DNA of 64,000 nucleotides from Nitrospinia bacterium (GCA_029261715.1 JAJDAT010000038.1:124001-188000), one strand, 5' to 3'; numbered from the stretch's first letter, positions 3,955-32,329 are shown. Program-made: numbers and translations. Notes: generated from the sequence alone by a model not told the origin.

Positions 3955-3965
3955 TTTCGGCAGTT

Positions 3966-5093
3966 CTAAACAACCAAGCCTTTTTCCACTAATTGGTCAT
4001 GAGCAAGATCCACTTTTGATTCTGCGGCTTCTTTCTCAACCCAATTAGACAAATCCTCTAGTCCTTTTTTTAATGAAAACTCTGGTTTAAAACCTAATTT
4101 TTCAATTTTTGAAACGTCTGCAAAACAATGCCGAATATCTCCATTGCGAAACTTATGGATAATATTAGGAGAGAAGTTTTTACCGGATAAATCAATGAGA
4201 GCTTGAGCTAATTGCAAAATTGAAGTTGGCTGACCAGTTCCGATATTAAAAATATCAAACTTTGATTCAGGAGAATCCAATAAAAGAAGTTTACCACGCA
4301 CTAGATCTTTTACATGAATAAGGTCTCGGGCCTGTTGACCATCTTCATAAATCAAAGGCGGTTTGTCGTTTTTTATACTTGAGGAAAATATTGCGGCGGC
4401 TCCAGTATAAGGATTATTTAAACTTTGTCTTGGGCCGTAACAATTAAAATAACGACATGCAACCGTTGGCAATTGATAAGCTTTGCCAATCATTATGGAG
4501 TAAACTTCCTGGTCCTTTTTACTCTGCGCATAAACAGAAGTGCAATCCAACTCTTTTTCTTCATCTGTGGGAGTGGGTTTTAAAACACTGCCACAGTCGG
4601 GGCAATACATTTCCCATTTTTTAGCCAATAAATCTTCTTCTAGCCTGGGCTTAGGTTTCACTTGACCATGTTCTTCACATTCAAACCGACCTTCCCCATA
4701 AAGGCTCATCGAACTCGCAACAAGAACTTTTTCGATGGAATGTTTTTCATTAACTAAAATATCCCATAAAATTCCCGTACCTTGAACGTTAACGGAAATA
4801 TATTGATCGATCGAATACATTGATTGACCAACACCCACTTCCGCCGCATCATGAATGATAACGTCCATGCCCTGAACAGCTTTTTTTAAGCTATCGCGAT
4901 CCCTGACATCGCCTTTAATAAATTCCACTTCCGAACTCAAATATCGCGGAATTTTGGCGTCGGGTCCATGAACTTGAGGATTGAGATTATCGTAAACGCG
5001 GACTTCATCTCCACGTTCTAATAAGGCGTCTACGGTATGCGATCCTATAAAACCGGCGCCTCCGGTAACCAATACTTTTCGGTTTGATTTCAT
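3966..5093 (-). CDS. NAD-dependent nucleotide-sugar epimerase (extended SDR), possible dTDP-L-rhamnose 4-epimerase
   Basis: Extended short-chain dehydrogenase acting on a nucleotide sugar. Seen: the NAD motif GGAGFIGSH (residues 11-19), catalytic Ser127/128, and Tyr188-x3-Lys192. An insertion at about 135-185 between the Ser and Tyr carries Cys139, His142, Cys164 and Cys167 (CPDC), which looks like a small zinc ribbon. The DNLNPQVHG motif after the first beta strands is one I associate with dTDP-L-rhamnose 4-epimerase-like members, but UDP-glucose 4-epimerase or another sugar epimerase cannot be excluded. It lies upstream of tamA in the same direction. The 295 bp between it and the tRNA gene hold nothing I recognise beyond AT-rich DNA likely to contain its promoter. 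Confidence 0.8.
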   Translation of the reverse strand: MKSNRKVLVTGGAGFIGSHTVDALLERGDEVRVYDNLNPQVHGPDAKIPRYLSSEVEFIKGDVRDRDSLKKAVQGMDVIIHDAAEVGVGQSMYSIDQYISVNVQGTGILWDILVNEKHSIEKVLVASSMSLYGEGRFECEEHGQVKPKPRLEEDLLAKKWEMYCPDCGSVLKPTPTDEEKELDCTSVYAQSKKDQEVYSIMIGKAYQLPTVACRYFNCYGPRQSLNNPYTGAAAIFSSSIKNDKPPLIYEDGQQARDLIHVKDLVRGKLLLLDSPESKFDIFNIGTGQPTSILQLAQALIDLSGKNFSPNIIHKFRNGDIRHCFADVSKIEKLGFKPEFSLKKGLEDLSNWVEKEAAESKVDLAHDQLVEKGLVV

Positions 5094-7994: not shown

Positions 7995-8831
7995 TTAATT
8001 AACTATCTTAAGTCTTACCTCTTCTTGACCTTTGGAAGAATTGGATTCGTTCTGCTCTGATGTCATATTAAAGAGCATTTTGTCGGTTTGAGGTTTTATC
8101 TCTAAGCTTGCTCCAATTGGACGGAGAACTTCTCGGTATTCGTTAATTAAGTAGTTTTCTTGGCGCATCACGTTTTCTAGTTCTTTATCAAGCGTCTTTT
8201 TTTCATCTGTAACGGTTTTATATCTCGCCTCTATAGATGCCTTCATATCTTTGGCTTTTTCTTTTTTTGCGCTAATTTCAGAAAGTGCAGCCATTAAGTT
8301 GGTACGAACGCCATCTATATAAAACAAATCTTCGTCAAATTTTTTAAATGCGTTATCTAGTGACTCTAAATATTCACGTCTTCTTTTAATCAAATGGTCA
8401 CGTCCTAGGCAATTTTTATTATACTGCCCCATCAATTTTTCTTCGACATCCATCGTGACTCTTTTTTGGACTGATAAATTTCCCGGCTCAAGAGGCATTA
8501 AATCCGTTAAGCTAGAACTACCAACCAATAGGCTCTCATAACGTTCTTTTATCATTCGCTCATTAGCATCTAATTGATCCAAAGCGGCAGTAACTTTTGC
8601 TAAATTTTGATCGTATATGGAAAGATTTGTGGAAAGAATGCGTAATTGACCAAGGGTCTCTTCAGAAATAAGCTTTAATTGATCAATTCGATCAACGAGA
8701 ACGGTTCGTTCATTCTCCTTCGCTTCTAAAGCATTATTAAACGTCTGAACGACTCCCTCCAGCTCTCGACTTAAATTACCACCCTCTTCTCTCACTTTTG
8801 TATTATTTCGGCCAGTTTCTACTGCGCTCAT
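7995..8831 (-). CDS. Coiled-coil protein of unknown function
   Basis: I do not recognise this 278-residue protein. It has no signal peptide and no membrane segment. From about residue 20 to 240 it is highly charged, with heptad-like spacing of Leu and Ile, so it is almost certainly a long alpha-helical coiled coil. A Pro/Gly break near residue 112 (LMPLEPG) suggests two helical arms. It starts at ATG with a good GAGG site. It lies downstream of pdxJ in the same direction, 139 bp away. Coiled coils of this size often organise cell-surface, division or chromosome structures, but nothing here shows which. Confidence 0.7.
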   Translation of the reverse strand: MSAVETGRNNTKVREEGGNLSRELEGVVQTFNNALEAKENERTVLVDRIDQLKLISEETLGQLRILSTNLSIYDQNLAKVTAALDQLDANERMIKERYESLLVGSSSLTDLMPLEPGNLSVQKRVTMDVEEKLMGQYNKNCLGRDHLIKRRREYLESLDNAFKKFDEDLFYIDGVRTNLMAALSEISAKKEKAKDMKASIEARYKTVTDEKKTLDKELENVMRQENYLINEYREVLRPIGASLEIKPQTDKMLFNMTSEQNESNSSKGQEEVRLKIVN

Positions 8832-8970
8832 CGCTTACCTCGGATCGAATATATTGGTCAAATTATTGGCGCGTTATTCCACAAGACATAAAAAGGCAAA
8901 AAACGTGCCAAGTCTCCCCAATCCTCGATCAAACTAATATTATTTGGATAGGAAAATCATACACCGTTTA

Positions 8971-9708
8971 TTACTGCGGACGCAAATTAATTCCGCGATC
9001 AATTGCATGGAACATTTCTTTAACGGCTTTTTCTATCCCAAGGTAAATAGATTTTGCAATAATATTATGCCCTATATTCAATTCCTCAATTTCTGGGATA
9101 GCGGCAATAGCCACTACATTTTGGTTATTTAAACCATGTCCCGCAAAAACTCGCAGTCCTAATTGAGACGCCAATTTACTAGAACTCTTTATTTTTTCTA
9201 ATTCTTTGGCGATTTTATCGGCATCTTTCAATTCCGTATATTGTCCAGTATTAAATTCTACACTATCTGCTCCTACTCGCTTTGAAGCTTCTATCTGCTT
9301 ATGATCTGGATCAATAAACAAACTAAAAAGAATTTTATTCTCCTTAAACTGCTCTCCCATATTTTTTAGCCGGTCTTCCATTGAAACAATATCTAATCCG
9401 CCTTCTGTCGTAATCTCTTCACGTTTTTCGGGAACTAAAGAAACTTGGTGTGGTTTACTTTTAAGGGCAATATTTAACATTTCGTCTGTCGGGGCCATTT
9501 CTAAATTCACTTTTGTTTTTACCGATTCACGAATCCGGACAACATCATGATCTTGAATATGCCTCCGATCTTCCCTCAGGTGAATAGTAATTCCGTCAGC
9601 TCCAGCCATTTCAGCTAATAAAGCCGCTTGCAAGGGATCTGGTTCATCGGTTTTTCTCGCTTCGCGAACGGTAGCGACATGGTCGACATTAATAAACAAA
9701 CGAATCAT
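8971..9708 (-). CDS. pdxJ: Pyridoxine 5'-phosphate synthase
   Basis: PdxJ condenses 1-deoxyxylulose-5-phosphate with 3-amino-2-oxopropyl phosphate to pyridoxine 5'-phosphate in the DXP-dependent vitamin B6 pathway. The 245 residues include the hallmark N-terminus LFINVDHVATVREAR, the second-strand DGITIHLREDRRHI, the Glu-rich NLEMAPTDEM segment and the C-terminal GHGLNN plus ELNIGHNIIA phosphate-binding part. It starts at ATG with GGAG upstream. It follows a TPR gene in the same direction. Length matches the family. Confidence 0.96.
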   Translation of the reverse strand: MIRLFINVDHVATVREARKTDEPDPLQAALLAEMAGADGITIHLREDRRHIQDHDVVRIRESVKTKVNLEMAPTDEMLNIALKSKPHQVSLVPEKREEITTEGGLDIVSMEDRLKNMGEQFKENKILFSLFIDPDHKQIEASKRVGADSVEFNTGQYTELKDADKIAKELEKIKSSSKLASQLGLRVFAGHGLNNQNVVAIAAIPEIEELNIGHNIIAKSIYLGIEKAVKEMFHAIDRGINLRPQ

Positions 9709-9776
9709 CTAAACATTTCTCCAAATGAGCAAGTTTCAAATCTAATTAAAAAAATCCTTTAATACGGCTGGTTATT

Positions 9777-10319
9777 CTATTTAGTTTTTGCTTCCATTAT
9801 TTTCGATAAAAATATCTTGGGACGTTTGAGTTCAGGCATAAGACTAAGAGCTTGTTTTAATAATTTTTCTGCATCGTCGTATTTTTTTTGTCGAAAATAA
9901 ACTTCTCCTAAGTTTAAATATGCTAATTCAAACTCAGGATTTACTTTTATTACTTGTTTAAGAGTAATCTCAGCTTTTTCATAGTCTCCACTTTGTTTGT
10001 AAGTATCGCCCAAAGTGTTGCCTGCCATATAAAATTTGGGATTAAGTTCCCAAGCTTTTTTTAATACGACAATCGCTTCATCAAATTTTTTTGAGTCTAA
10101 ATAAATCTTCCCTAAATTATTTAGCGCAAATATATTATTTGGGTTTGATTTTAATATGGCATTAAATATATCTATCGCTCTTTGAGTATGACCTTTCATA
10201 CCCGCCTGTATTGCTTCGTGCATCCATTCCTTGGTATGCATGGTTTTGTTTTGGGCTTCGGAATTTAATGGCAGCATGAATACCATTAATGAAATAATTA
10301 AAGAAAGAGCTTTAATCAA
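9777..10319 (-). CDS. Secreted tetratricopeptide-repeat protein
   Basis: This is a 180-residue protein with an N-terminal signal peptide (hydrophobic at about residues 5-18, ending SEAQN) followed by about four TPR units. The repeats carry the usual LNNLGKIYLDSKKFDEAI type pattern at about 60-175. It is probably a periplasmic protein-protein interaction module. The start is TTG with a GAGG Shine-Dalgarno 8 nt upstream. It lies 14 bp after folP and upstream of pdxJ, so it is probably cotranscribed. The partner is not evident from sequence. Confidence 0.8.
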   Translation of the reverse strand: MIKALSLIISLMVFMLPLNSEAQNKTMHTKEWMHEAIQAGMKGHTQRAIDIFNAILKSNPNNIFALNNLGKIYLDSKKFDEAIVVLKKAWELNPKFYMAGNTLGDTYKQSGDYEKAEITLKQVIKVNPEFELAYLNLGEVYFRQKKYDDAEKLLKQALSLMPELKRPKIFLSKIMEAKTK

Positions 10320-10333
10320 CTTTATATCCTCAC

Positions 10334-11149
10334 TTATAGTTTTAGTATATTTCCAGCAACACTAATTGCTCTAACAGTCTCTTTTACGTCGTGAACTCGA
10401 AAAATCCGAGCTCCTTTTTGTAAACCAACCACTGCTGCGGCCAAAGAACCTTCTAACCTTTCTTCGACGGGTAAATCTAAAATCTTCCCTATAAACGCTT
10501 TCCGTGAAACTCCCAGCGCTATTGGATAATTTAAGGTTTGAAACGTATCTAACTCCCGAATGATTTGAAAATTATGTTCAATTGTTTTACCAAACCCAAT
10601 ACCTGGATCTAACGCAATTTTATCTGGACTTACTCCTGCCTGAACCGCTTTATTCGCAGATTCTTTCAAAAACAATCCAATTTCAGATATCAAATCCTTG
10701 TAATGAGGAGTTTCTTGCATTGTTTGAGGAGTTCCCTGCATATGCATAAGAGCCATGCCTGCGTTAAACTTTGCGACTATAGACGCGGTTTCGGGATACT
10801 TTTTTAACCCGGTAATATCATTAATTATTGCAGCTCCCCCATCTAAAACACATTCCGCCACCTTTGGTTTGTAAGTATCTACCGAAATGGGGACAGAAAA
10901 TCTTTTTACCAGCTCTGGAATAATATCTTTTAATCGGTCGATTTCGGTTTCTTCGGGGACAGGTGAAGAACCAGGGCGCGACGATTCAGCGCCAACATCC
11001 AAAATATCAGCGCCCTCATCAACCATTTTCTCAGCAAACTCAAGAACTTCTTTTAGATCAATTTTTCTGCTAGTGTCATAGAAAGAATCAGTGGTTACGT
11101 TTATAATTCCCATGATCCAATACTTTCTATCGGAAAACTTAAAGCTCAT
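10334..11149 (-). CDS. folP: Dihydropteroate synthase
   Basis: Joins p-aminobenzoate to the pterin pyrophosphate in folate synthesis. At 271 residues it is full length. It shows the IMGIINVTTDSFYD start motif, DVGAESSRPGS, the central ISVDTYKPKVAE and INDITGL, DPGIGFGKTIEHN, and a C-terminal FRVHDVKET. It lies downstream of ftsH in the same direction, the widespread ftsH-folP order. A terminator separates the two, so folP probably depends on read-through or its own promoter in the short gap. Confidence 0.97.
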   Translation of the reverse strand: MSFKFSDRKYWIMGIINVTTDSFYDTSRKIDLKEVLEFAEKMVDEGADILDVGAESSRPGSSPVPEETEIDRLKDIIPELVKRFSVPISVDTYKPKVAECVLDGGAAIINDITGLKKYPETASIVAKFNAGMALMHMQGTPQTMQETPHYKDLISEIGLFLKESANKAVQAGVSPDKIALDPGIGFGKTIEHNFQIIRELDTFQTLNYPIALGVSRKAFIGKILDLPVEERLEGSLAAAVVGLQKGARIFRVHDVKETVRAISVAGNILKL

Positions 11150-11175
11150 AAGTCAAAAAGAGATCTCAAAAAAAG

Positions 11176-11210
11176 AAAAACCCCATTCTTTTTTAAAGAA
11201 TGGGGTTTTT
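11176..11210 (-). terminator. Intrinsic terminator after ftsH
   Basis: A 16-bp inverted repeat (aaaaaccccattcttt and its complement, 3-nt loop) lies 21 bp after the ftsH stop. On the minus strand the stem runs directly into a T-rich tract. It lies between ftsH and folP, so it limits or ends ftsH transcription. Confidence 0.85.
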
Positions 11211-11230
11211 AAAACTAAACGTAAGTTTGA

Positions 11231-13156
11231 TTAAGCTGGTGTCGGATCTGGCATTCCTCCTGGAAACAACCCACCTTCGTCGGATTTATTGGCTTGATTG
11301 TCTTTTGCCTCATCCTCTGATACGACTTTTGAATCCGTTCCAACAGGCGTGCCACCATCGCCAGGTTTTTCGTTGTTGATTAATGCTTTCATTTCTTTAA
11401 AGTCAACCGATTCAGTTTCAAGAAGACCTTGTGCAAGTCTTTCTAAAGCGTCGCGATTTTCTTCTATCAACGTTTTGGCTTTGGTATAACCATCCATAAC
11501 CAATTCTTTAATTTCGTTATCAATGAGCTTAGCGGTTTCATCGCTAAAATTCTTTTGATTATTAAAATCCCTTCCTAAGAAAACTTGTTCTTCTTTAGTT
11601 CCATAGGTTAAGGGTCCCATTTTTTCACTCATTCCCCACTCACATACCATTTTTCTAGCCATGTCAGTAGCGCGTTCAATATCATTACCTGCGCCAGTAG
11701 TCATTTGCCCTAAAGCGAGTTCTTCGGCAACCCGACCACCCATTAAAATGGCTAAATTATTATACAAAAAGGATCTAGGATAAGTATGCTTTTCGTCTTC
11801 AGGTAATTGCATAGTTACCCCTAAAGCTCTACCACGCGGTATGATTGTAACTTTATGAATTGGATCGGTTCCTGGAAGCATAAATGCAACCAATGCATGA
11901 CCCGCTTCGTGATAAGCAGTTGTGGTTTTTTCTTTTTCAGAAATAACCAGACTTCTTCTTTCCACTCCCATAAGCACTTTGTCTTTAGCCTGCTCAAAAA
12001 AATCTTGGGATACCGCTTTTTGATCTCCTCTTGCTGCAAGTAAAGCCGCTTCATTAACTAAATTGGCTAAATCTGCGCCAGTAAAACCAGGAGTTCCTCT
12101 AGCAATCACTTTTAAATCGATATCATCAGTTAACGGAACATTGGATGTATGTACTTTTAGAATACCTTCTCTACCCTTAACATCAGGTCGATTGACAGTT
12201 ACTTGTCGATCAAAGCGTCCTGGACGTAATAAAGCTGGATCCAAAACATCTGGTCTGTTGGTAGCGGCAATCATAATAACGCCATCATTATTTTCAAAAC
12301 CATCCATTTCAACCAGAAGTTGGTTTAGGGTTTGTTCTCTTTCATCATGTCCTCCCCCTAATCCCGCTCCTCTATGTCTACCAACTGCATCGATTTCATC
12401 GATAAAGATGATACAAGGGCTGTTCTTCTTTCCCTGCTCGAATAAATCTCGAACACGAGACGCTCCAACGCCCACAAACATTTCTACAAAGTCCGAGCCG
12501 CTTATACTAAAGAAAGGAACATTTGCTTCGCCAGCTATTGCGCGTGCTAGTAGTGTTTTCCCTGTACCTGGAGGCCCTACGAGTAAAACCCCTTTTGGTA
12601 TTTTCCCGCCTAAACTACTAAATTTTTGCGGTTCCTTTAAGAATTCGATGATTTCATGAAGCTCTTCTTTTGCCTCATCAACTCCAGCGACATCTTTAAA
12701 AGTAGTTTTATTTTTCTTGTCAGACATCAGCCTAGCTTTACTTTTCCCAAAGGAAAGAGCTTTGCCGCCTCCAGATTGCATTTGACGCATAAAGAAAATC
12801 CATATTCCCAAAAGTAAAAGCATTGGGAACCAAGAAATCAATATATTCATGTACCAGCTAGTTTGCTCTGGTGGTTCAACGACAATTCGCACGCCTTTTT
12901 CCCGTAACATCTTGATAATATCAGGATCTTTAGGGGGAGCGTATGTTTGGAAAGTCAGACCGTCGGTATAAGTTCCTCTAATTTGATCCCCTTGTATAAC
13001 CACTTCAGAAATCTGCCCAGTTTCGACTTTATTATAGAAGTCGCTAAAGATAATTTCACTTTGGGGAGCAAGCGGTCTATTAAAAATATTAAATAAGGAA
13101 ATCATAATCAGCCCAATTACCAACCAAAGGGCTAGATTTTTATAAAATTGGTTCAA
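11231..13156 (-). CDS. ftsH: ATP-dependent zinc metalloprotease FtsH
   Basis: Membrane-anchored AAA+ protease that degrades misassembled membrane and regulatory proteins. Of 641 residues, transmembrane segments lie at about 9-26 and 105-123 with a periplasmic domain between. Walker A is GPPGTGKT (194-201), Walker B IIFIDE (249-254), and the second region of homology contains [20 protein letters not shown]. The zinc site HEAGH is at 416-420. The start is TTG with AGGAG 7 nt upstream; no better ATG is present. It is flanked by tilS upstream and folP downstream, the common tilS-ftsH-folP order. Confidence 0.97.
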
Positions 13157-13300
13157 AACGGTCTCCTCTTAATAAAGGCTTCAGTCAATTTATTCTAATA
13201 TTTTAACATAATTGAATTTGGAGTTGCTAACCCTTTATTCTAATAGAACTTTAGGGAAAGGTCGTTAAAAAAAGAAGAAAATCAGCCTTTTTCATGTTAG

Positions 13301-14713
13301 TTAACTCAAATCTCGTCCTCGAATGGCAATAATTTGCCGAGTTTCTTCTCTAACTCTAAAATTATGACCAATTCGATGTCCATATATCCAAATAATATCA
13401 TTTTTCCCATTTGTCAAAATAGGAATGCGATTTCTTTCATTTTTTGGAACTTTTTCATCAATAAAAAATGATTTCACCTTTTTAACACCTTTCATTCCTA
13501 ATGGAACAAATCGATCTCCCGGTTCAAATAAACGACAGGATATTTTGTCGCCAGTTTCTTCAAAGTCAAAAAACTCTTCTTTTTCATTTTTATTATTAAA
13601 ATCAAAACTGGTTCGATCTACTAATCGGCAATTCAGTTCGATGCCTAAATCATTAATTATGGTTTTACCGGGAACGTCTATTGACCTAAAAGTTGAAACA
13701 AGTTCTATTTTATTTCCCTCTCTTTTTTTTCTAAGAATTAAAGAATCCTCCGATATAAAAGCTTCGATCAAACAAGGAATTTGCAACGTTTTTCCCAAAA
13801 TATTTTTTCTAGAGAACGCATCTAACCTATTTATATGTGACGATTCAATACTTCTCAAATCCCCTTTAATAAATTTAATCGCCGCCAATAAAACACGTCT
13901 TTTTAAACCCGGCTTAATTAAATTTAGTTGACTTAGACCCAGGGATACCCCTCCTCCAATACCCTTATCAAAACTCAATTTATCAAAATACTCTTGAGTC
14001 AAACTATCTAGTATATCCATATCATCGCGAATTAACTGGGACATCTCGCTAAGTCGATTGACAATATTTGGATTATAGTTTTCTTCTAAATATGGAATGA
14101 AATCGGCGCGGACTCTGTTTCTTAAATAAATCTTCGAAGCGTTTGTCGAATCATCACAAAACTCGGTTGAGGACTCTTCTAAATAATTTAACAATTCTTT
14201 TTTCCGGCATTCAATTAGCGGTCTAATTATTCCTTCTCTAACAGGGGGGATACCAGATATTCCATTAAGTCCGGCCCCTCTTGTAAAGTTTATCAGCACT
14301 GTTTCGGTTTGATCGTCGACGGTGTGCCCCAAAGCAATTTTGTCGCCTTCAACCTCTTTCAAAACATCTTTAAGAAATTGATACCTCAATATTCTCGCAG
14401 TTTCTTGAAATGAACGTTTAAATTTTTCCTGCTCTTTTTTAACGTCTTTTTCTGCTAAGTAAGATTTAATATTCCAATTACCACATAATTCCTTAACGAA
14501 TTCAGCATCTCGATAGGAATCTTCACCTCTTGCGAGATGATTTAGATGAGCCGCAAAAAGCTCTATTTCCAACTCGTCGGATAATTCACGAAGCAAAGCT
14601 AATAAAGCTACAGAATCACTCCCACCGGACAAAGCAACTAACACTTTATCTCCAGGAGAAACCATATTATGCGAATTAAGAGTTTTTCTTATTTTATTTA
14701 AGAGAGGTCTCAT
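13301..14713 (-). CDS. tilS: tRNA(Ile)-lysidine synthase
   Basis: TilS modifies C34 of the AUA-reading isoleucine tRNA to lysidine, using ATP and lysine. The PP-loop motif ALSGGSDSVALLALL sits near residues 28-42. HTVDDQTETVL, RGAGLNGISGIPP and a FCDDSTN segment follow, as in the family. The C-terminal third carries the TilS substrate-binding region with PGDRFVPLGMKG near residue 400. At 470 residues it is the longer, bacterial two-domain type. It lies upstream of ftsH, as in many genomes. Confidence 0.95.
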   Translation of the reverse strand: MRPLLNKIRKTLNSHNMVSPGDKVLVALSGGSDSVALLALLRELSDELEIELFAAHLNHLARGEDSYRDAEFVKELCGNWNIKSYLAEKDVKKEQEKFKRSFQETARILRYQFLKDVLKEVEGDKIALGHTVDDQTETVLINFTRGAGLNGISGIPPVREGIIRPLIECRKKELLNYLEESSTEFCDDSTNASKIYLRNRVRADFIPYLEENYNPNIVNRLSEMSQLIRDDMDILDSLTQEYFDKLSFDKGIGGGVSLGLSQLNLIKPGLKRRVLLAAIKFIKGDLRSIESSHINRLDAFSRKNILGKTLQIPCLIEAFISEDSLILRKKREGNKIELVSTFRSIDVPGKTIINDLGIELNCRLVDRTSFDFNNKNEKEEFFDFEETGDKISCRLFEPGDRFVPLGMKGVKKVKSFFIDEKVPKNERNRIPILTNGKNDIIWIYGHRIGHNFRVREETRQIIAIRGRDLS

Positions 14714-14794
14714 GAAAATAGAATACCTAAATTAAAAAAAATAGATATGAACGGGGGGAAGTTTTTTGTGAAATAAATGAAGGGGGGTTAATTA

Positions 14795-16126
14795 CTAAAG
14801 ATTTTTCAAAAGATCTCTTTTTCTTTTTTCGTATTCTTCTTCAGAAATTATATTTCTTTTTTTAAGAATTTTAATATATTGCAAACGTTTCTTTAAAGCT
14901 TCTGCATCCGAATCATTCACACTGCTTTTCGAGCTCATTTTTGTTTTTTGTTTTTTTAAAGCTCTATTTTTTCTATTATTTAACTCGCTTTTACGTGGCA
15001 ACCTAGCTGTTTGACTTATTTTTTTAGAAAGTATCTTCTTTTTAGGAGAATCAAGATAAACCTCCAAAAACGCATCTTTCTTTAATTCGCCGATCCAACG
15101 AATATATTGTTTTTGGGCAACTTTACCAAATAAAGTATTTTCAATTTCTGGTTTGACCTCTTTATAAGTCCTATATTTTTTAGGAATGACTTTATCGACT
15201 TTAATTATATGTAATCCATAGGGTGTTTCCACAATAGGGCTAACTTGCCCTTGTTTTAGCCTGAAAGCCGCTTCTTCAAACTCTTTAAGCATTTTTCCTC
15301 GTTCTAAAACTCCTAAGTCGCCGCCCGAAGACGCTGACACATCTTCTGAATATTTTTTAGCCGCTTTCTTAAAAGACATTCCAGAACGTATTTTTTTCAG
15401 GGCTTCTTCTGCCTTTTCCCTTTTTAATTCTTTTGAAGTTTCTGAAATACTTTCTCCAAAAATAAATAAAATATGGCGAACATGAATTTTAGAAGGGGTT
15501 AAAAAATCTTTTCTATTTTTTTTGTAATATTGCTTTATTTTTTTTTCGCTAATTCTGGCGCTATTTCTTAAGTGGTGATTTCTTACTTTTGAAATAATGA
15601 TTTGTTCGCGAATTTTTTTCTTATAGCCTTTAAGATTCATCCCCTCTTTTTCCAACATTGCCAAAAAAACATCGTCGGGAACTCTATTCGCGGTTTTAAT
15701 CTCTTTAATAGCGTCTTCTACGTTAGTCTCTGAAACGGTAATATTTAGTGTTTTTTTACCCTCTTGTATTAAGAGTTTCTCTTCTAAAATCAAATCAAGG
15801 GCTTGTTTGTTATATTCTTTATTCGTAAGGAGCTTAACGCCTTCTTGGCCTCGTCTTTCTAGTCTGATTAATTTAGCGCGGTCTTCTACTTCACTAAGAG
15901 TGACAATACTGTCGTTAATTTTTGCGATCACCCTGTCAAAGGCTTTAGCGTTTGCAAACATTGGTAACGCCAAGATTAAAAAACTAAGAAAGGATAAGGT
16001 CTTCAGGAAACCTCTAAAACTTATTTTTAGACGCGAACTGGCTTTATGAAATAAGAAATTGTGGTTTACCGCAAACAGAGAGGTGTTCTTAAAATATCTT
16101 TTATTTGACATTTTCAATGGCTTCAT
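14795..16126 (-). CDS. SurA-like periplasmic chaperone/parvulin with SHOCT-like C-terminus
   Basis: Secreted chaperone of the SurA/PpiC type, expected to help outer-membrane proteins fold. A hydrophobic signal core is at about residues 42-58 (LSFLSFLILALPMFANA). The SurA N-terminal region covers about 60-190, and one parvulin domain about 210-315 (HVRHILFIFGES, SASSGGDLGVLERG, TPYGLHIIKVDK). The last 35 residues resemble a SHOCT motif (ILKKRNIISEEEYEKRKRDLL), unusual for SurA. The start is uncertain: the listed ATG gives a 40-residue pre-signal extension, and the ATG at 16111 (MSNK) overlapping the upstream stop is equally possible. No clear ribosome site supports either. Confidence 0.8.
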   Translation of the reverse strand: MKPLKMSNKRYFKNTSLFAVNHNFLFHKASSRLKISFRGFLKTLSFLSFLILALPMFANAKAFDRVIAKINDSIVTLSEVEDRAKLIRLERRGQEGVKLLTNKEYNKQALDLILEEKLLIQEGKKTLNITVSETNVEDAIKEIKTANRVPDDVFLAMLEKEGMNLKGYKKKIREQIIISKVRNHHLRNSARISEKKIKQYYKKNRKDFLTPSKIHVRHILFIFGESISETSKELKREKAEEALKKIRSGMSFKKAAKKYSEDVSASSGGDLGVLERGKMLKEFEEAAFRLKQGQVSPIVETPYGLHIIKVDKVIPKKYRTYKEVKPEIENTLFGKVAQKQYIRWIGELKKDAFLEVYLDSPKKKILSKKISQTARLPRKSELNNRKNRALKKQKTKMSSKSSVNDSDAEALKKRLQYIKILKKRNIISEEEYEKRKRDLLKNL

Positions 16127-24810: not shown

Positions 24811-24830
24811 GTCATAAGTTTAGCTTCATA

Positions 24831-24866
24831 AAACGGCGTTCCCCCTTCGGGAACGCCGTTTTTTTT
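24831..24866 (+). terminator. Intrinsic terminator after ahcY
   Basis: A 12-bp GC-rich stem (aacggcgttccc at 24832-24843 pairing with 24849-24860) with a 5-nt loop is followed by eight T residues. It ends the aguB-aguA-ahcY strand and insulates the recombinase gene downstream. Confidence 0.93.
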
Positions 24867-25111
24867 GCCCCTGCCCGTTTCCATACCCTTCATAATAACG
24901 CTGGAGTTTCGTCATATTTTAGAGTAGATTACTCCGCCTCAGACACCAAAAAATAGCATTTTAGCCTTATTTTAAAGGCCAAAATAGATTTTCAAAATAC
25001 AGATATTTTGGAGATTCGAATTTTATTTACAAGGTATCAAATCCATTATTGGATTTATCCATGTAAAGAGTTTGTCTTCAAAAATAAAAAGATGGAGGCA
25101 AATATTTTGAA

Positions 25112-26089
25112 ATGAGGCAAAAGAACACTTCTCTAAAACTATCGACCGACCTTTTTATTGATCATTGCCGTATATCAAAGAGCTTATCGGATAATACGCT
25201 GAAAGCCTATTGCATCGATTTAGACAACTTTAAAATATTTTGTGGCGAAAGAATTAATCTAAAAAAAATAGATAAAGAACTAATAAGAAAGTTTCTAACT
25301 TATTTAATCAAGGCAAGGGAACTAAAACCAAGTTCTGTAAAAAGAAAAATAGCTTGCCTAAAGGCTTTTTTTGTTTGGTTAGAAAACGAAGACCAAATAG
25401 AAATCAGCCCGTTTCATAAATTAGGCATTAAAATCTCTATCCCCGCAAGGCTCCCTAATACCCTCTCGACAGAAGAACTACAGAAACTATTCAAGCTTGG
25501 CAAAAGGTTTAATCAACAAGCGCAAAAAAGCTTAAACGCTAATTCAAGACAATCAAAATTCTGGAATTTAAAAGACTTTAATTCTTATACAACTCATTTA
25601 GCTTTAGAAATTATGTTCACAACCGGTATCCGAGTTGGAGAATTGGTTACAATCAAAATCAAAGATATTGACCTCATTGAAGGATCAATAAAAGTCATTG
25701 GAAAAGGCAATAAGCAAAGAAAAGTTTTTTTAGTAGACGAAGAAATCAAAAATCTAATTCGCCACTATGTTGAAATCAGGCAACAATTCAGCCCTATTAC
25801 GGAAGTTTTACTAATCAATAGTCGAGGTTTAGCGGCCACCACACAAATAGTGAGACTTTATCTTCGGGAAGCGTCAAAGAAAGCAAGTCTGGAAAGATGT
25901 ATTACTCCTCATATGTTGAGACATTCAGCCGCAACGCATTTATTGGAAGCTGGAGTCGATATAAGATTTGTTCAGAAGTTATTAGGCCATAATAGCATCA
26001 CCACAACCCAAATTTACACGCAAGTCAGCGACCGCAGCCTACAAAACACGATCACCCAAGCCAACACACGTAAACTTTTTGGAGGATAA
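25112..26089 (+). CDS. Tyrosine recombinase, XerC/XerD type
   Basis: Site-specific recombinase of 325 residues with a complete catalytic set: Arg174 (TGIRVGE), Lys198, His267 and Arg270 (HMLRHSAATHLLEAG), His293 (LLGHNSITTTQ) and nucleophile Tyr302. An N-terminal SAM-like core-binding domain covers about 10-100. An extra loop of about 25-30 residues (about 132-160) makes it longer than typical XerC/D (about 300). Its stop lies 3 bp before one arm of a 19-bp inverted repeat and 32 bp before the STAND gene, with no terminator between. It could be the housekeeping dimer-resolution Xer, but its position beside the repeat argues for a dedicated role in DNA inversion (inference). Confidence 0.9.
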   Translation: MRQKNTSLKLSTDLFIDHCRISKSLSDNTLKAYCIDLDNFKIFCGERINLKKIDKELIRKFLTYLIKARELKPSSVKRKIACLKAFFVWLENEDQIEISPFHKLGIKISIPARLPNTLSTEELQKLFKLGKRFNQQAQKSLNANSRQSKFWNLKDFNSYTTHLALEIMFTTGIRVGELVTIKIKDIDLIEGSIKVIGKGNKQRKVFLVDEEIKNLIRHYVEIRQQFSPITEVLLINSRGLAATTQIVRLYLREASKKASLERCITPHMLRHSAATHLLEAGVDIRFVQKLLGHNSITTTQIYTQVSDRSLQNTITQANTRKLFGG

Positions 26090-26092
26090 AAC

Positions 26093-26111
26093 TATGGATA
26101 ACTAGGAATTA
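26093..26111 (+). repeat. Left arm of 19-bp perfect inverted repeat
   Basis: TATGGATAACTAGGAATTA lies 3 bp after the recombinase stop and 10 nt before the STAND gene start. Its exact reverse complement is at 31745-31763. It contains a 3-codon reading frame (ATG GAT AAC TAG), an AGGA ribosome-site-like core, and short arms ATAA/TTA(T) around a 7-nt centre, which is the size of a tyrosine-recombinase core. Confidence 0.8.
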
Positions 26112-26121
26112 AGGATAATAA

Positions 26122-29100
26122 ATGAGCAAGGAAAAGGTTCCTAAAAATGCGGTTGAGGTCTGGAAATTGATGAGATCTTATACTGAATCCATTCCTAAGT
26201 GTATTCGGCCAAGTGAACATAATAAAAAAAGAAAATTTCAACTTTTTGAAGTTGTTGCGGCCTCTCTGTTTTCTATTTTAAATAATTCAATTAAATGGAC
26301 TGTTACACCGGTACAGGGTGATAACGGGATAGATTTTAGTGGAGAGATTGAAATAATTCCTAAATCTAAGTTTATTGAACCGGCAAAAATGATATTAGGA
26401 GGTCAATGTAAAGCCTTAGATTTAGATAGGAAAAACAAAATTGACATTATAGGACAATTTTCAACTGATTTTTTTAGAATGAAAGAATCAATAAATCCAA
26501 ATTTTTTTTCATGTTTGATAGCATGTTTAAATGGAAAATTTAAACCCAAAGATTTAAGTGAAGCAAAGGCTTCTTTTCAAAGACAATTAGCAGTAAACAC
26601 AGAAGTTTTAGGATTGGAGCAAGTAGAGCATTTAATAAAAGAAAACTATCGAAAAATAAGACCTGTAATAACTAAAAGTTCACTTTCTAAGGAAAAAATT
26701 AAGACTATAGATAGTTATTTTTCAACTATTGATAAAATAACTAAGAATGATTTATCTGTTGACCTTTCTATTGCTTGTGATGGAAAAGCTCAATCAGGGA
26801 TTCCATTTAAATGTAATATTAGTATCAACTCTCATTACTTAAGCTCTGGAAGAATTAATCTAATTTATCGAAAACACAAAACTTACCTTTCAGAAAGTGG
26901 AAAAGATTCTGAAGATTCAATTAAAGTTCTGTCTCCAAAACAAATTATAGAAAAAAAAGGCTTTGATGTTAACGTTGAGTGGAATCAAAAATATGTTTTA
27001 AATTTAACTTTTTTGAGTTATTTAACAGGTGAAATAGAATTAGGCTTCTTAGATATTTTTGATAAAGATAATTTTGTCGATTCTATCAGTTTGGGGCTAA
27101 TTCATCTTTCAGATACTTTTACTCCTCCATTTTTTTGGACCAATAAAAATAGAGAATATTCAATAAACTTTGAAAGAATATTAGAAAATGCTTTCTCAGG
27201 TGAATTTAATCCAATTGCTGTATTAGGTTATGGAGGAAATGGAAAGTCTAGATTTTGCCAGGAATTAGGTTTTATTTCAGAAACAAAAGGGGCAGAATTT
27301 GCTTCTTTATCACATCAAAATAATTTTGAAAACCCTTATGGAATCATTAGAGATATATTGAGCGCCTTATGCGTGCCTCTAAATGACGTGGAATCCCCCT
27401 TAGATACCGTGAAAAGAGTTATACACTCAAACTCTCCATCTCTTGCCCAAAAAAGCGAACCTACTTTAGAAGTTATTTTTTCTATTAAAAACACAGAACA
27501 ATCTACCTTTGCAGATCACTCAGTTATAGTAACAGTCTTAATTTTTTTATTACGTTTAAAAGCTTTAAATAAAACCTTTGTATTGCATTTATCAGATATG
27601 CATTGGTGTCATGGCCAAGTTTTACAGTTATTTATTGAACTAATTAAGCAAATCAAATTTTCAGGTAATAATAAACATTCAAGAATTATTATTATTTTTG
27701 AAGGTCGAATTTCTGAAATAAATACTAAAACAAAAGACTTGAATAAAAAATTTGATTTTTCAAGCGCAAGTTTTGAAAACTTTGTAAATAGTAATATTCA
27801 AAATCAGTTTTTAATATCAAGCTTGACGCGAATTGAAAGTTTTAAGTTTTTGAAAAATTTTTTCGAGTTTCAGGATAGATTTAATCCCAAGTTAACAAAA
27901 AAACTGATCCCCCATCAATCTGACCTTTTAGAAAATATAGTTTTACTGGCAAATGGAAATCCTTTTTATATGATCGAAATAATCAGATCTTTAAGGGATA
28001 AGGGGTTTATTCGAAAAAATAATCGTACTGGTAGGCTTTTCTTAATAAAGAAACTACCAAAAAACTTTCATATTCCAGTTAATGTTGAGTTAATGATCAA
28101 AGCTAGATTTAAATATCTTTCAAGAAATAATCCGCAACTTGCAAACTTAATTCAAGCTGTTGCTCTAATTAAAAACAGGATTGAATTTGATCTTTATAAA
28201 AAATTAATAAAAAAAATAGGAAATGGAATTTCAAATGATGACGTAGAAAAAACAGAATTTTTGTTTTTTGAAGAAACTTCATTCGGCAATATAAAATTTC
28301 GCCATGAATTATACTTTCAAACTATCCGAAATATTAAACTAGATGAATATATTAAGGAAAAAGTAGTTGAAGTATATTTAAAATTCCTTAATTGTAAAGA
28401 CTCGGAACTTCCATTAATTAATTTAGAAAAAGCATTAGTTTTAAAAGAATCAAAAAGTTTTGATTTCCAAAAAATCAAACACTTTTTAGTTAGAGCAAGT
28501 AATCAGGCACAAAAAAGAAAAGAAACTATTTTGTTAACCAGAGTTTTATCTGAATTAATAAAACTTTTTGGACCTATTGATGATTCCTTAGAGAAGCCAA
28601 TTGATGTTAATTTAGAAATTAGTCGAATTATTAGGAGTTATGCAGAATTAAATTTGTGGCATGGGGATCGTGAAGAATCAGTTAAACAACTAGAAGAATT
28701 AATAGACCATTTAAATAGAGTAAAGGAGAAAACGAAAGCTAATTGTCTTTATGAAAACTTTTTTGAGTTTGAATATGAACTAAATATGACAAAAGTTCAG
28801 TATGCAAACGCTTTGATGAATCAATTTAAATCACATAAGGCTATTGAAACAATACTAGGTTCCTTACCCTCTATTAAAAGTTCTTATTCTCAAACCTCTG
28901 GGGTTTCAGAAAAAATATTAAAAAACCAATGGAGTGATCTTTTATCACTTTCTTTTAATAGATTGGGAGTTGCCTATAAAATAGAGGGGTGTATTGATGA
29001 ATCGATTAAAGCTCATTTAGATTCATTTGAAAGCTTTATATCGAAAAATAAAGAAGCAAAATTTGGTATTTATTTTGATTTGGCGAGAACTTATTGCTTA

Positions 29101-29766
29101 GTTGATCAAAAAAGAGCTTCTAATTATTTGAAGATGAGTAAAGCAATTCTTGTAGATTCTGATTTAAATAAAAAATATAAGTGTATGTTAGATATAGCAA
29201 AACTTAATTTTGACGTTCTTACCTTAAATAAAAAAGGGACGAAAGCCCTAAATAAATCTCTTGAAAATATTTTCCATAAGTCCCAAAACGTTTATTTTGA
29301 ATCGATTAAACTGGGTCTAGGCATGGAAATAGCCGCTTCAGCTCTTTTATGTGGTTCTTTGAAAGCCTTAATGAAAGATAGATCGGCATATGATTGGTTT
29401 ATGGAAGCTATTAATATTACTTTTACTAAAAGTTATTATGAGATGCTTTGGAAAGCACATTTAAACCTAAGTCAATACTGCTTGGGAGATAAAAGCTTTA
29501 ATGAAGACGCTTATCAACACGCAATTTATGTTTATAAATATATAATTGAAGATGATTTATTTCAACGCGATCCTTTGGAAAGACAATGGCGTACGAGAAA
29601 AATGGAACGCCCTATCGCGCAGCTTTATAGAGTTTTGAAAAATTTTAATGATCCAAACGCGGATACTCTTAAAGTGAACTTTGCATGCATAAAGAGAAAT
29701 AATAGATTTTTATCTAAAAATATTGAGTTTTTGAAATTAGATAAAAGTGAATATTTTCTTTTTTAA
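26122..29766 (+). CDS. Mrr-like nuclease / STAND-type NTPase / helical-repeat protein (Avs-like candidate)
   Basis: A 1214-residue protein whose domain order resembles antiviral STAND (Avs) proteins. Residues about 35-130 look like an Mrr-type PD-(D/E)xK nuclease: Glu43 (LFEVVAASL), Asp71 (GDNGIDFSG) and Gln95-x-Lys97 (GGQCKA). A beta-rich linker of unknown type follows (about 200-340). The NTPase has Walker A GYGGNGKS (369-376) and an AAA_16-like Walker B LHLSDMHW (Asp492). Residues about 700-1150 look like helical TPR-type repeats. It starts at ATG with AAGG 7 nt upstream. It is more AT-rich than its neighbours and lies at the left end of an inverted-repeat-bounded segment. Family knowledge suggests target sensing through the repeats and DNA cleavage by the nuclease; no close relative is recognised, and a regulator of another kind is possible. 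Confidence 0.75.
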   Translation: MSKEKVPKNAVEVWKLMRSYTESIPKCIRPSEHNKKRKFQLFEVVAASLFSILNNSIKWTVTPVQGDNGIDFSGEIEIIPKSKFIEPAKMILGGQCKALDLDRKNKIDIIGQFSTDFFRMKESINPNFFSCLIACLNGKFKPKDLSEAKASFQRQLAVNTEVLGLEQVEHLIKENYRKIRPVITKSSLSKEKIKTIDSYFSTIDKITKNDLSVDLSIACDGKAQSGIPFKCNISINSHYLSSGRINLIYRKHKTYLSESGKDSEDSIKVLSPKQIIEKKGFDVNVEWNQKYVLNLTFLSYLTGEIELGFLDIFDKDNFVDSISLGLIHLSDTFTPPFFWTNKNREYSINFERILENAFSGEFNPIAVLGYGGNGKSRFCQELGFISETKGAEFASLSHQNNFENPYGIIRDILSALCVPLNDVESPLDTVKRVIHSNSPSLAQKSEPTLEVIFSIKNTEQSTFADHSVIVTVLIFLLRLKALNKTFVLHLSDMHWCHGQVLQLFIELIKQIKFSGNNKHSRIIIIFEGRISEINTKTKDLNKKFDFSSASFENFVNSNIQNQFLISSLTRIESFKFLKNFFEFQDRFNPKLTKKLIPHQSDLLENIVLLANGNPFYMIEIIRSLRDKGFIRKNNRTGRLFLIKKLPKNFHIPVNVELMIKARFKYLSRNNPQLANLIQAVALIKNRIEFDLYKKLIKKIGNGISNDDVEKTEFLFFEETSFGNIKFRHELYFQTIRNIKLDEYIKEKVVEVYLKFLNCKDSELPLINLEKALVLKESKSFDFQKIKHFLVRASNQAQKRKETILLTRVLSELIKLFGPIDDSLEKPIDVNLEISRIIRSYAELNLWHGDREESVKQLEELIDHLNRVKEKTKANCLYENFFEFEYELNMTKVQYANALMNQFKSHKAIETILGSLPSIKSSYSQTSGVSEKILKNQWSDLLSLSFNRLGVAYKIEGCIDESIKAHLDSFESFISKNKEAKFGIYFDLARTYCLVDQKRASNYLKMSKAILVDSDLNKKYKCMLDIAKLNFDVLTLNKKGTKALNKSLENIFHKSQNVYFESIKLGLGMEIAASALLCGSLKALMKDRSAYDWFMEAINITFTKSYYEMLWKAHLNLSQYCLGDKSFNEDAYQHAIYVYKYIIEDDLFQRDPLERQWRTRKMERPIAQLYRVLKNFNDPNADTLKVNFACIKRNNRFLSKNIEFLKLDKSEYFLF

Positions 29767-29774
29767 ATTATATA

Positions 29775-30605
29775 CTAATAGTTTCCTGTTTTAATATTTA
29801 GTATTTTTTTTGACCATTGGTTCAATACATAATGGAATTTCAAAAACAAATGAGAAATTCGCATTAATTGATTTGCTAATTGTTTTCTGAAAAAGTTTTC
29901 ATTTTTTACATTTACTTTATTTAATTGCCAAAAAACAGCTGGTTTTATTTCTCCTACCCCATCTAATTGCGAAGAATAATAAAATAGAGCTAATGATTTC
30001 CGAAAACTGTTTTTTATAGGTTTTGATATACCATGAATGGCTTTTGATGAAGTCTCAAAAAGAATAACCTGTCCTTTCTTAGGTAGAATATCTTTTTTTA
30101 CTTTATTACCTTCCCATAGCTCTAAAGCTCCGTAATTATAATTATTCCATTGTTCATTCAAATAAATAATAAGAGTTAACTTTCTTTTTAGGTTTGGGAT
30201 ATTACTAAATTGAAAATCTGCATGTGGCGTTAAAAAGCTATTTGGTTCCATACATTGTAGACCTGCTCCGAATAAATGAGGATCAGGAAGTAAATTCTTA
30301 TTATTTGAAACTATTTCTAGCCATTTAATCACAGGGCCGCTTTGTAGTTCAAAAATCAATTGCCGTATTGACATGGGCATTTCTAAGATATCATTAAATG
30401 AATATTTCCCTTTTTGTAATTCGTGACCAACATTTTTCCATGCGCTTTGTTGTAAACTTGGAAATGATTCAATTATTTTATTTAATTTTTGTTCATGTAA
30501 GAATTGAGAGAATACAATATGTTTAAAGGGATCGGCTTTCTTAAATTCTTCTGCATCTTTTTTAGCTCTTGATACTAAATATTCTATATTTATGTATTCA
30601 AGCAT
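29775..30605 (-). CDS. 2-oxoglutarate/Fe(II)-dependent oxygenase
   Basis: Double-stranded beta-helix dioxygenase of 276 residues. The iron ligands His128-x-Asp130 (TPHADF) and His191 (AIHGISKP) are present, and Arg202 (FRKSLALFYYS) fits 2-oxoglutarate binding. The HADF/HGI/FRxSLALFYY set is typical of the prolyl-4-hydroxylase-like branch, often seen near glycan genes. Its start overlaps the glycosyltransferase stop by 16 bp, so the two are coupled and presumably act on one substrate. The substrate is unknown. It converges on the STAND gene with only 8 bp between the stops. Confidence 0.85.
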   Translation of the reverse strand: MLEYINIEYLVSRAKKDAEEFKKADPFKHIVFSQFLHEQKLNKIIESFPSLQQSAWKNVGHELQKGKYSFNDILEMPMSIRQLIFELQSGPVIKWLEIVSNNKNLLPDPHLFGAGLQCMEPNSFLTPHADFQFSNIPNLKRKLTLIIYLNEQWNNYNYGALELWEGNKVKKDILPKKGQVILFETSSKAIHGISKPIKNSFRKSLALFYYSSQLDGVGEIKPAVFWQLNKVNVKNENFFRKQLANQLMRISHLFLKFHYVLNQWSKKILNIKTGNY

Positions 30606-31735
30606 AAATCTGAAGTCTTGATTATATTTGCGAAATGATCAATGACATATTCGTTATCAAGCAAATTTAATCTACAATTAAACCAATATTTATTTTTATC
30701 TAATTGCGGAAATTGATCGACTACATAGAAAAAACGTTTCGATTCTGATAAAAAGTTCAAGGGAAGGATTAAAGGCAAGTACAATTGATAATTAGGATTG
30801 GAAGTTTGCCTAAAATTAAAAACTTTTAAATTGCCTGTAGATTTTAACTTTTGTTTGATAAAAGAAATTATTCCTTTATCTAATAAACCTCTCGATAGGT
30901 TAATGATTGCCCAATTATTTATTTCTATTTTTTTTTCTGACTGAAATTGATTCTTCCACGACTCTAGGAGATACTTAAGCATATCCTGTTCGATTTTATT
31001 GCCCCAATCTGTCCAAAAACGAGCTTCATTACTCTCATCTAAGGAAAACCTTGGGGTTCCAGATAAACTTTCCCAATGGTAAGAAATCGATTGAGAATCA
31101 ACAATGATTTTTAAACCGTTTTTCCTAACTCTAAGGCAATAATCGATATCCTCATTTCGGTTAAAGTAAAATGGATTTAAGTTTCCAGTTGCTTGCCATA
31201 CTTTAGATGGAATACATACTTGCGCAAAAGTTGTAGCTTGAACTTCTCTATTTTTATTTACTAAAGAGTTTGAATAAGGGGAATTTAAGAAAAAATGATA
31301 TTTTTTGATATCAGAAAACCCAACCCCAATATGTTGAATTCTTCCAGTTTGAGGGTAAATCAGTTTTGACCCGATTATTCCGCAGTCTTTTGTGTCTCCC
31401 AGGGTTTTAATCATGGAGTTTAAAGAATCTTTTTGGAGTATCAAATCTGTGTTGAGGATAAAATAATATTTTCCCTGTGCCTTTGAAACTCCAAAATTTA
31501 CTGCGTTAGCATATCCTTCCGGGAATTCATTCCTATAAAAAAGGAAGTTTTTCTTTTTTAAATCATTTGGAATCGTTTCTTTTATATTTTCAGTAGAACC
31601 ATCATCCACAACTATAAGCTCAAAATTTTTCGAAATAGACGTTTTAATATTTTTCCAAAATTGAGGTAAAAAATTAATTCCATTGTGAACAGGTACAACA
31701 ATGCTAACTTCTGGTTTTGAGTTTTTAGCTACCAT
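30590..31735 (-). CDS. Family 2 glycosyltransferase
   Basis: GT-A fold glycosyltransferase of 381 residues. The N-terminal domain has VSIVVPVHNG (residues 10-19), LIVVDDGSTE and the metal-site-like FILNTDLIL; a downstream NRNEDIDYCLRVRKNG segment matches the rhamnosyltransferase-type GT2 group. The last 120 residues are unassigned. It starts at ATG 9 nt from the right repeat arm, whose AGGA may serve as ribosome site. Coupled to the 2OG oxygenase gene, it probably modifies a surface glycan (inference). Confidence 0.88.
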   Translation of the reverse strand: MVAKNSKPEVSIVVPVHNGINFLPQFWKNIKTSISKNFELIVVDDGSTENIKETIPNDLKKKNFLFYRNEFPEGYANAVNFGVSKAQGKYYFILNTDLILQKDSLNSMIKTLGDTKDCGIIGSKLIYPQTGRIQHIGVGFSDIKKYHFFLNSPYSNSLVNKNREVQATTFAQVCIPSKVWQATGNLNPFYFNRNEDIDYCLRVRKNGLKIIVDSQSISYHWESLSGTPRFSLDESNEARFWTDWGNKIEQDMLKYLLESWKNQFQSEKKIEINNWAIINLSRGLLDKGIISFIKQKLKSTGNLKVFNFRQTSNPNYQLYLPLILPLNFLSESKRFFYVVDQFPQLDKNKYWFNCRLNLLDNEYVIDHFANIIKTSDLCLNT

Positions 31736-31744
31736 TTTTATACA

Positions 31745-31763
31745 TAATTCCTAGTTATCCATA
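31745..31763 (-). repeat. Right arm of 19-bp perfect inverted repeat
   Basis: This is the exact reverse complement of 26093-26111. It sits 9 nt upstream of the glycosyltransferase start, as the left arm sits 10 nt upstream of the STAND start. On this side ATAA/TTAT arms around CTAGGAA make a slightly better core palindrome. Together the arms bound 5,671 bp. Confidence 0.8.
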
Positions 31764-32240: not shown

Positions 32241-32278
32241 TGAAAATAAAAAACCCTCTCCCTAAATAGGGAGAGGGT
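32241..32278 (-). terminator. Intrinsic terminator after the lipoprotein operon
   Basis: accctctccct (32253-32263), a 4-nt loop and the complement agggagagggt form an 11-bp stem. On the minus strand it is followed by a T-rich run. It lies about 50 bp after the stop of the 303-residue lipoprotein and ends that leftward operon. Confidence 0.85.
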
Positions 32279-32329
32279 CAATCAAACTTTAGTATCAAAC
32301 AAATATATTAAAAGTAAATTCCAGCTTTA

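Follow-up and report, generated by a model that had tools for sequence, protein, structure and literature searches.

What does a pair of identical short sequences do when the two copies face each other across several kilobases of coding DNA, beside a recombinase gene? We met this arrangement in a 64-kb stretch of DNA from a Nitrospinia bacterium (64,000 nucleotides, hereafter the window), for which an initial annotation had proposed a cassette that the neighboring tyrosine recombinase inverts, so as to switch between a defense-like protein and a pair of glycan-modifying enzymes.

Anatomy of the locus

The sequence TATGGATAACTAGGAATTA lies at 26093–26111 on the plus strand and again at 31745–31763 on the minus strand, forming an exact inverted repeat of 19 bp with zero mismatches, as first reported. 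It is the sole exact 19-bp inverted repeat within the window, and it exceeds what chance produces: shuffles of the window (n = 100) had a mean of 0.01 matches to the repeat with ≤3 mismatches, and in dinucleotide shuffles (n = 400) inverted repeats with one arm at the 3′ end of the recombinase gene reached at most 16 bp, compared with the 19 bp observed. The surroundings described for the repeat also held up. Its left arm starts 3 bp past the end (26089) of a complete recombinase ORF, and inward-facing start codons lie 10 nt inside the left arm (26122) and 9 nt inside the right arm (31735). The locus therefore has the anatomy of an invertible element, with inverted repeats at both ends and a recombinase adjacent. 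The repeat is not a widespread leader element, a reading that the initial annotation had itself raised, as a search of the assembly (5.33 Mb in 52 contigs, 96.9% complete) found no exact copy besides the two arms, and one copy with a single mismatch on another contig.

Within the 19 bp is an Xer-like core, ATAA-CTAGGAA-TTA. The predicted left recombination site reads ATAA (26098–26101), CTAGGAA (26102–26108) and TTAA (26109–26112), and the predicted right site, in inverted orientation, reads ATAA-CTAGGAA-TTAT. The inner arm of the left core is TTAA, compared with the TTAT usual in the family described below, a deviation that could mean that the site or the enzyme is decaying. Two other identities for the repeat were rejected: a genome-wide search for dif-like patterns, made for a chromosomal dif site, returned background matches only, and an integrative element would have direct attL/attR repeats enclosing its integrase, whereas here the recombinase is external to a pair of inverted repeats. 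Separately, a near-copy of the site, GGATAACTAGGAATTATATA, with one mismatch, occurs on the minus strand at G000:C47:176967–176983 (= L005:1501–1517). It is intergenic, about 80 bp ahead of an ORF, and overlaps a promoter-like TTGACA-TATAAT; we saw no cassette layout around it, and it may be either a secondary site or a chance match. Elsewhere in the window, an intergenic perfect 16-bp hairpin with a 3-nt loop at 11176–11210 (AAAAACCCCATTCTTT / AAAGAATGGGGTTTTT) is an ordinary bidirectional terminator.

The recombinase gene (25112–26089, plus strand) encodes 325 aa with a strong match to Pfam PF00589 (5e-41). By Pfam the protein has the make-up of a simple Xer-type tyrosine recombinase, a SAM-like core-binding domain and a catalytic domain with R-K-H-R-H-Y, and its catalytic residues R174, K198, H267, R270, H293 and Y302 are all present and invariant. 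It is not an XerC or XerD orthologue, scoring under both equivalog cut-offs (229 vs 335 and 219 vs 330 bits), and Xer genes of chromosomal type are found elsewhere in the genome, on contigs C47 and C25. An IntI-type integrase was likewise rejected (124.7 against a cut-off of 265). On a profile built from seven site-flanked recombinases, the window protein among them, it scored 430 bits, a value partly due to this construction, compared with ≤262 bits for XerC/D-type proteins of its phylum.

Between the arms lie 5.65 kb with two convergent units. The one proximal to the recombinase, reading inward from the left, is a single gene for a STAND-type ATPase of 1214 aa (26122–29766, plus strand). It had been described as a nuclease-STAND protein. 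The STAND part of that label has an AAA_16 match (3.7e-5, below the cut-off), weak similarity to TPR_12 (0.02) and nSTAND6 (0.044), and a Walker A sequence, GYGGNGKS. The nuclease part goes back to an Mrr-like GID...QCK (GxD...QCK) motif at the N-terminus that was seen by eye only and was matched by no profile; an AlphaFold model of this region, with a mean pLDDT of 38, was unusable for checking a nuclease fold. We found no homologues of the protein in 77 genomes of the phylum, in plasmids or in viral contigs, and no PADLOC model matches it. The distal unit reads inward from the right and consists of overlapping genes on the minus strand for a family-2 glycosyltransferase of 381 aa (30590–31735; PF00535, 9e-22) and, second, a 2OG-Fe(II) oxygenase of 276 aa (29775–30605; PF13640, 5e-15). 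Both domains named in the initial annotation are thus present, and these two domains are the whole basis for calling the unit glycan genes. A role in defense is plausible for part of the family's cargo and is not established for this cassette. The GC content of the cassette genes (0.284–0.307; 0.29 for the segment) is below that of the recombinase (0.356) and of the adjoining flank genes (0.382–0.410), which suggests that the cassette has a history different from its surroundings.

Transcription signals frame the locus on both sides. A strong intrinsic terminator, read from sequence, follows ahcY on the plus strand (24830–24866), so the recombinase needs its own promoter, within 24867–25111. 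Beyond the right arm, a terminator on the minus strand follows the neighboring 303-aa gene (32252–32279), and the distal unit could have a promoter in the approximately 490 bp that are left. Consensus promoter scans on both sides of the cassette stayed at chance level.

Related recombinases and their site rule

Within this non-XerC/D family, eleven further recombinase lineages have a cassette between inverted ATAA-N7-TTAT sites; they come from Methylobacterium, Aliarcobacter, Paenibacillus, Streptococcus, Ruegeria, Bacillota genomes and viral contigs. The closest relatives, at 33–42% identity, are on plasmids of Methylobacterium radiotolerans (pMRAD01), Aliarcobacter and Paenibacillus, all with the order recombinase, site, gene, convergent gene(s), inverted site. 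Further systems are a second one in Aliarcobacter, the phage-like contig L120, streptococcal megaplasmids, a human-gut contig (L110), Ruegeria pSD25 (L103) and three Bacillota genomes (L251, L252 and L257). Their cassettes are mostly two convergent genes or gene sets, with L257 having just one long reading frame between its sites, and in the streptococcal-type systems the recombinase is outside the cassette, facing away. On L120, the recombinase-plus-cassette unit (8824–15222) sits among apparent phage structural genes, judged from translated ORFs.

In 12/12 systems, counting the window, the site has the form xATAA-N7-TTATx and the cassette lies to one side of it. The 7-mer is the same on both arms in each of the 12, a uniformity that is partly due to selection because the site search required exact repeats, and it is mostly unlike between systems. 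Identical 7-mers on the two arms fit the requirement of a tyrosine recombinase with a putative 7-bp overlap. The window core, ATAA-CTAGGAA-TTA, fits the form and is near the 7-mer of Paenibacillus and L257 (CTATGAA). Gene starts in the relatives fall at the sites or just inside them, and a ribosome-binding site and start codon are often found close to the core on its inner side (GGAGG in Paenibacillus, GGTAGGAG in streptococci).

To control for chance occurrence of the motif, we counted GATAA-N7-TTATC with ≤1 mismatch within 250 bp of recombinase genes. It was present beside 18/35 high-scoring family members compared with 6/121 other Xer-like proteins, two of which (L257 and L103) turned out to be family members. 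About 11 of the 35 high-scoring recombinases had no recognizable site nearby, some of them at contig ends. Plasmid relatives in Roseobacter, Rhizobium and Bradyrhizobium had no site pair, Ruegeria pSD25 excepted, and none was found for the nearest recombinases in the phylum of the window (G063, two copies). A quick tree with long branches did not support a single clade of site-flanked recombinases, which fall inside a broader non-XerC/D group (SH-aLRT 94), counting 6 changes of label. At E ≤ 1e-90, independent family members were present in 10/392 genomes when the phylum was that of a Bacillota centre, and in 2/396 genomes when it was that of an Acidobacteriota centre.

Inversion, replacement and cargo in homologous systems

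For a homologous system in A. cryaerophilus, both orientations of the cassette occur naturally. Plasmids pM830MA and pACRY43158 carry a 3.46-kb cassette, 99.9% identical, in opposite orientations: positions 969–4425 of pM830MA align in reverse to 14399–10942 of pACRY43158. The flanks are collinear and 99–100% identical, the recombinases are identical, and the breakpoints fall inside the site, with alignment overlaps of 17–20 bp that correspond to the sites. The annotation of pM830MA splits the large gene, here in distal position (L102:1937–4407), into two ORFs. Since it aligns in inverted orientation to the intact copy with a single gap, a frameshift or an error of sequencing is the likely cause.

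Cassettes are also replaced. A. faecis pAFAEC, compared with pACRY43158, has an unrelated cassette whose junctions are at the sites, with a recombinase 97.6% identical over that segment and flanks of about 91% (91–98% overall), so that Aliarcobacter plasmids with a common recombinase and common flanks hold two unrelated cassettes. Three unrelated cassettes are found among five streptococcal plasmids with recombinases 95–100% identical, which match one another in the flanks outside the sites but not inside. Relatives in both genera thereby combine other cargo with the same sites and a matching background, the pattern of cassette exchange. Judged from these alignments, site-delimited inversion and cassette replacement both occur in homologous plasmid systems. 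Because the junctions coincide with the sites, the comparison favors replacement by the recombinase over homologous recombination in the flanks, without settling the matter.

The predicted cargo is recurrently a STAND ATPase opposite an enzyme. In four plasmid systems an ATP-grasp protein resembling D-ala-D-ala ligase is the partner of an AAA_16/STAND-type ATPase of about 800 aa, and in L251 an ATP-grasp protein faces a 777-aa protein without a Pfam match. The ATP-grasp proteins, that of L251 included, are related to each other, whereas most of their large partners are not detectably so. The ICDC2 cassette has an nSTAND-TPR gene with SHMT, and that of Ruegeria pSD25 (L103:2884–9776) an Mrr-nuclease STAND gene, interrupted by IS21, with a carbamoyltransferase. 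On the human-gut contig (L110:7589–9690), a ThsA-type SIR2-STALD gene faces a TIR gene between inverted sites at 7558 and 9701, a Thoeris-like pair. Other cassettes lack a STAND protein and contain acetyltransferase/methyltransferase or polyprenyl synthase/unknown genes. As an observation apart, the convergent arrangement of a STAND/AAA-type or unclassified protein of about 780–820 aa with an ATP-grasp protein recurs in L076, L078, L079, L117 and L251, which are plasmids unrelated to one another and one Bacillota genome, and is possibly an undescribed two-gene module.

A switch-and-exchange model and its alternatives

We consider it probable that an Xer-derived recombinase flips the 5.65-kb cassette at its inverted sites, and that the same sites allow one cassette to be exchanged for another. 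The enzyme would act on two sites, each made of ATAA, a 7-bp overlap (CTAGGAA) and a TTAT-like arm, with the two convergent transcription units, the STAND ATPase gene and the glycosyltransferase-oxygenase pair, between them. Since the sites are inverted, recombination would flip the segment and could not delete or excise it. A flip would put the other unit in the position read from the recombinase side, which the STAND gene now occupies, and either unit should be translatable there because its first codon is close to the inside of the site and a ribosome-binding site often accompanies it. A newly arriving cassette, if its sites match, would take the place of the resident one by double-site exchange. 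The model supposes that the window copy is active, that transcription starts at a promoter upstream of the recombinase and reaches the proximal unit by read-through, that flipping alters expression, and that replacement is recombinase-mediated rather than the result of homologous recombination in the flanks. For the distal unit, a second promoter could lie in the roughly 490 bp between the site and the neighbor's terminator. The flip might act as an either/or switch or as a promoter swap. The Thoeris-like pair speaks for the promoter swap: cooperation between its two proteins is to be expected, which weighs against a strict either/or switch.

The proposal of a recombinase-worked cassette finds strong support in homologous systems, in the A. 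cryaerophilus inversion and the shared layout and site of 11 further lineages, and would apply to the window by analogy. The window contributes the anatomy; its orientation was read from one assembly, and its genome is the sole representative of its family in the genome set. An invertible cassette, the central idea of the initial annotation, is very likely correct. The Xer-like core, the distinct composition of the cassette and the recurrence of a device that also swaps cassettes go beyond the initial annotation.

The repeat could be explained without recombination, as a leader or translation element shared by two unrelated genes or as chance, and the distance from arm to start codon is indeed similar on both sides. 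With two exact copies only in 5.33 Mb, shuffles that exclude chance, and a fit to the site consensus of recombinases just 32–42% identical, this explanation is highly improbable. That recombinase and sites once worked and are now fixed in this genome as a dead remnant is unlikely: the TTAA of the left arm, unlike the family's TTAT, and the single orientation in a single assembly would suit such a remnant, but the recombinase ORF is complete with all catalytic residues and the 19-bp arms are still identical.

Two further accounts keep the device alive and differ over its purpose. Cassette exchange may be the main function, with inversion a by-product and both units expressed either way from promoters on both sides. 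Inverted sites permit a gene pair to be captured and replaced without loss, and this account would also suit the wholesale replacement in two genera, the foreign composition of the window cassette, the intergenic gap outside its distal site, and the presence in one cassette of a Thoeris-like pair. However, systems of type A, the window included, place start codons directly behind the recombinase transcript, which suggests that expression is coupled to orientation, and natural inversion has been observed; we regard the account as a serious contender that falls somewhat short of an even chance. Natural inversion would also follow from a simple phase-variation switch with one promoter on the recombinase side and a silent distal unit, the differences between plasmid cassettes then arising by homologous recombination. 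The spacing between recombinase and proximal gene is operon-like in the window and in four plasmid lineages, as this account would have it, but the junctions of replacement are the sites in all compared plasmids and the distal gaps are long enough for promoters, leaving it a tentative reading on the doubtful side.

The combined flip-and-exchange model shares features with several known systems. Tyrosine-recombinase invertons (FimB/FimE, C. difficile RecV) likewise have short inverted repeats and two orientations; here, by contrast, the sites are Xer-like with a 7-bp center, multi-kb convergent units take the place of a promoter segment, and the cassette is also replaced. We rejected an invertible promoter, the inverton in the strict sense, for the window, where the segment is 5.65 kb of coding genes with start codons 9–10 nt inside the arms. 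In hsdS shufflon-like systems (Streptococcus CreX/PsrA) and gene-altering programmed inversions (Milman et al., 2023, as cited in PMC11892184), a recombinase also lies by convergent genes and inversion sets what is read, whereas here the sites are upstream of whole genes, the units are unrelated and coding sequence is not recombined; the intergenic position of the window sites excluded this class. Integrons, too, have a tyrosine recombinase gene by a site where foreign cassettes come and go. Unlike their same-direction attC arrays, the arrangement here is two inverted sites of double-strand type around a convergent pair, and an integron was rejected for the window on its single inverted pair and an integrase score under the cut-off. 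XerCD-dif and Xer-using mobile elements share the ATAA-spacer-TTAT sites and a recombinase homologous to XerC/D, but the present recombinases are a separate group with a 7-bp rather than 6-bp center and inverted site pairs, and the chromosomal Xer genes lie elsewhere. Thoeris (ThsA/ThsB) is approached by the homologous L110 cassette; the window cassette has no Thoeris gene. The layout is not described in the open-access papers that we searched.

Phase-variation invertases and integrons are usually treated apart, and here one Xer-like recombinase group, present in several phyla on plasmids and other elements, is associated with both. The whole looks like a little-noticed switch-and-exchange device for defense-like and enzyme genes, one that would let entire immune-type modules be flipped on or off and traded while keeping them safe from excision. 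The odds seem evenly balanced that such recombinases form a cross-phylum flip-and-swap platform for convergent pairs that are undeletable, flippable and replaceable, often a STAND/NADase effector opposite a small-molecule or glycan enzyme, and that it circulates immune-type modules including Thoeris. The recurrence of a STAND ATPase convergent with ATP-grasp, SHMT or another enzyme suggests that such pairs are functional two-component modules. Further members of the family are easy to look for by its site rule, an ATAA-N7-TTAT motif next to the recombinase. Four draft contigs (L119, L253, L260 and L261) stop at or near a recombination site, which fits assembly breakage at a repeat, from coexisting orientations or several copies, and is only suggestive.
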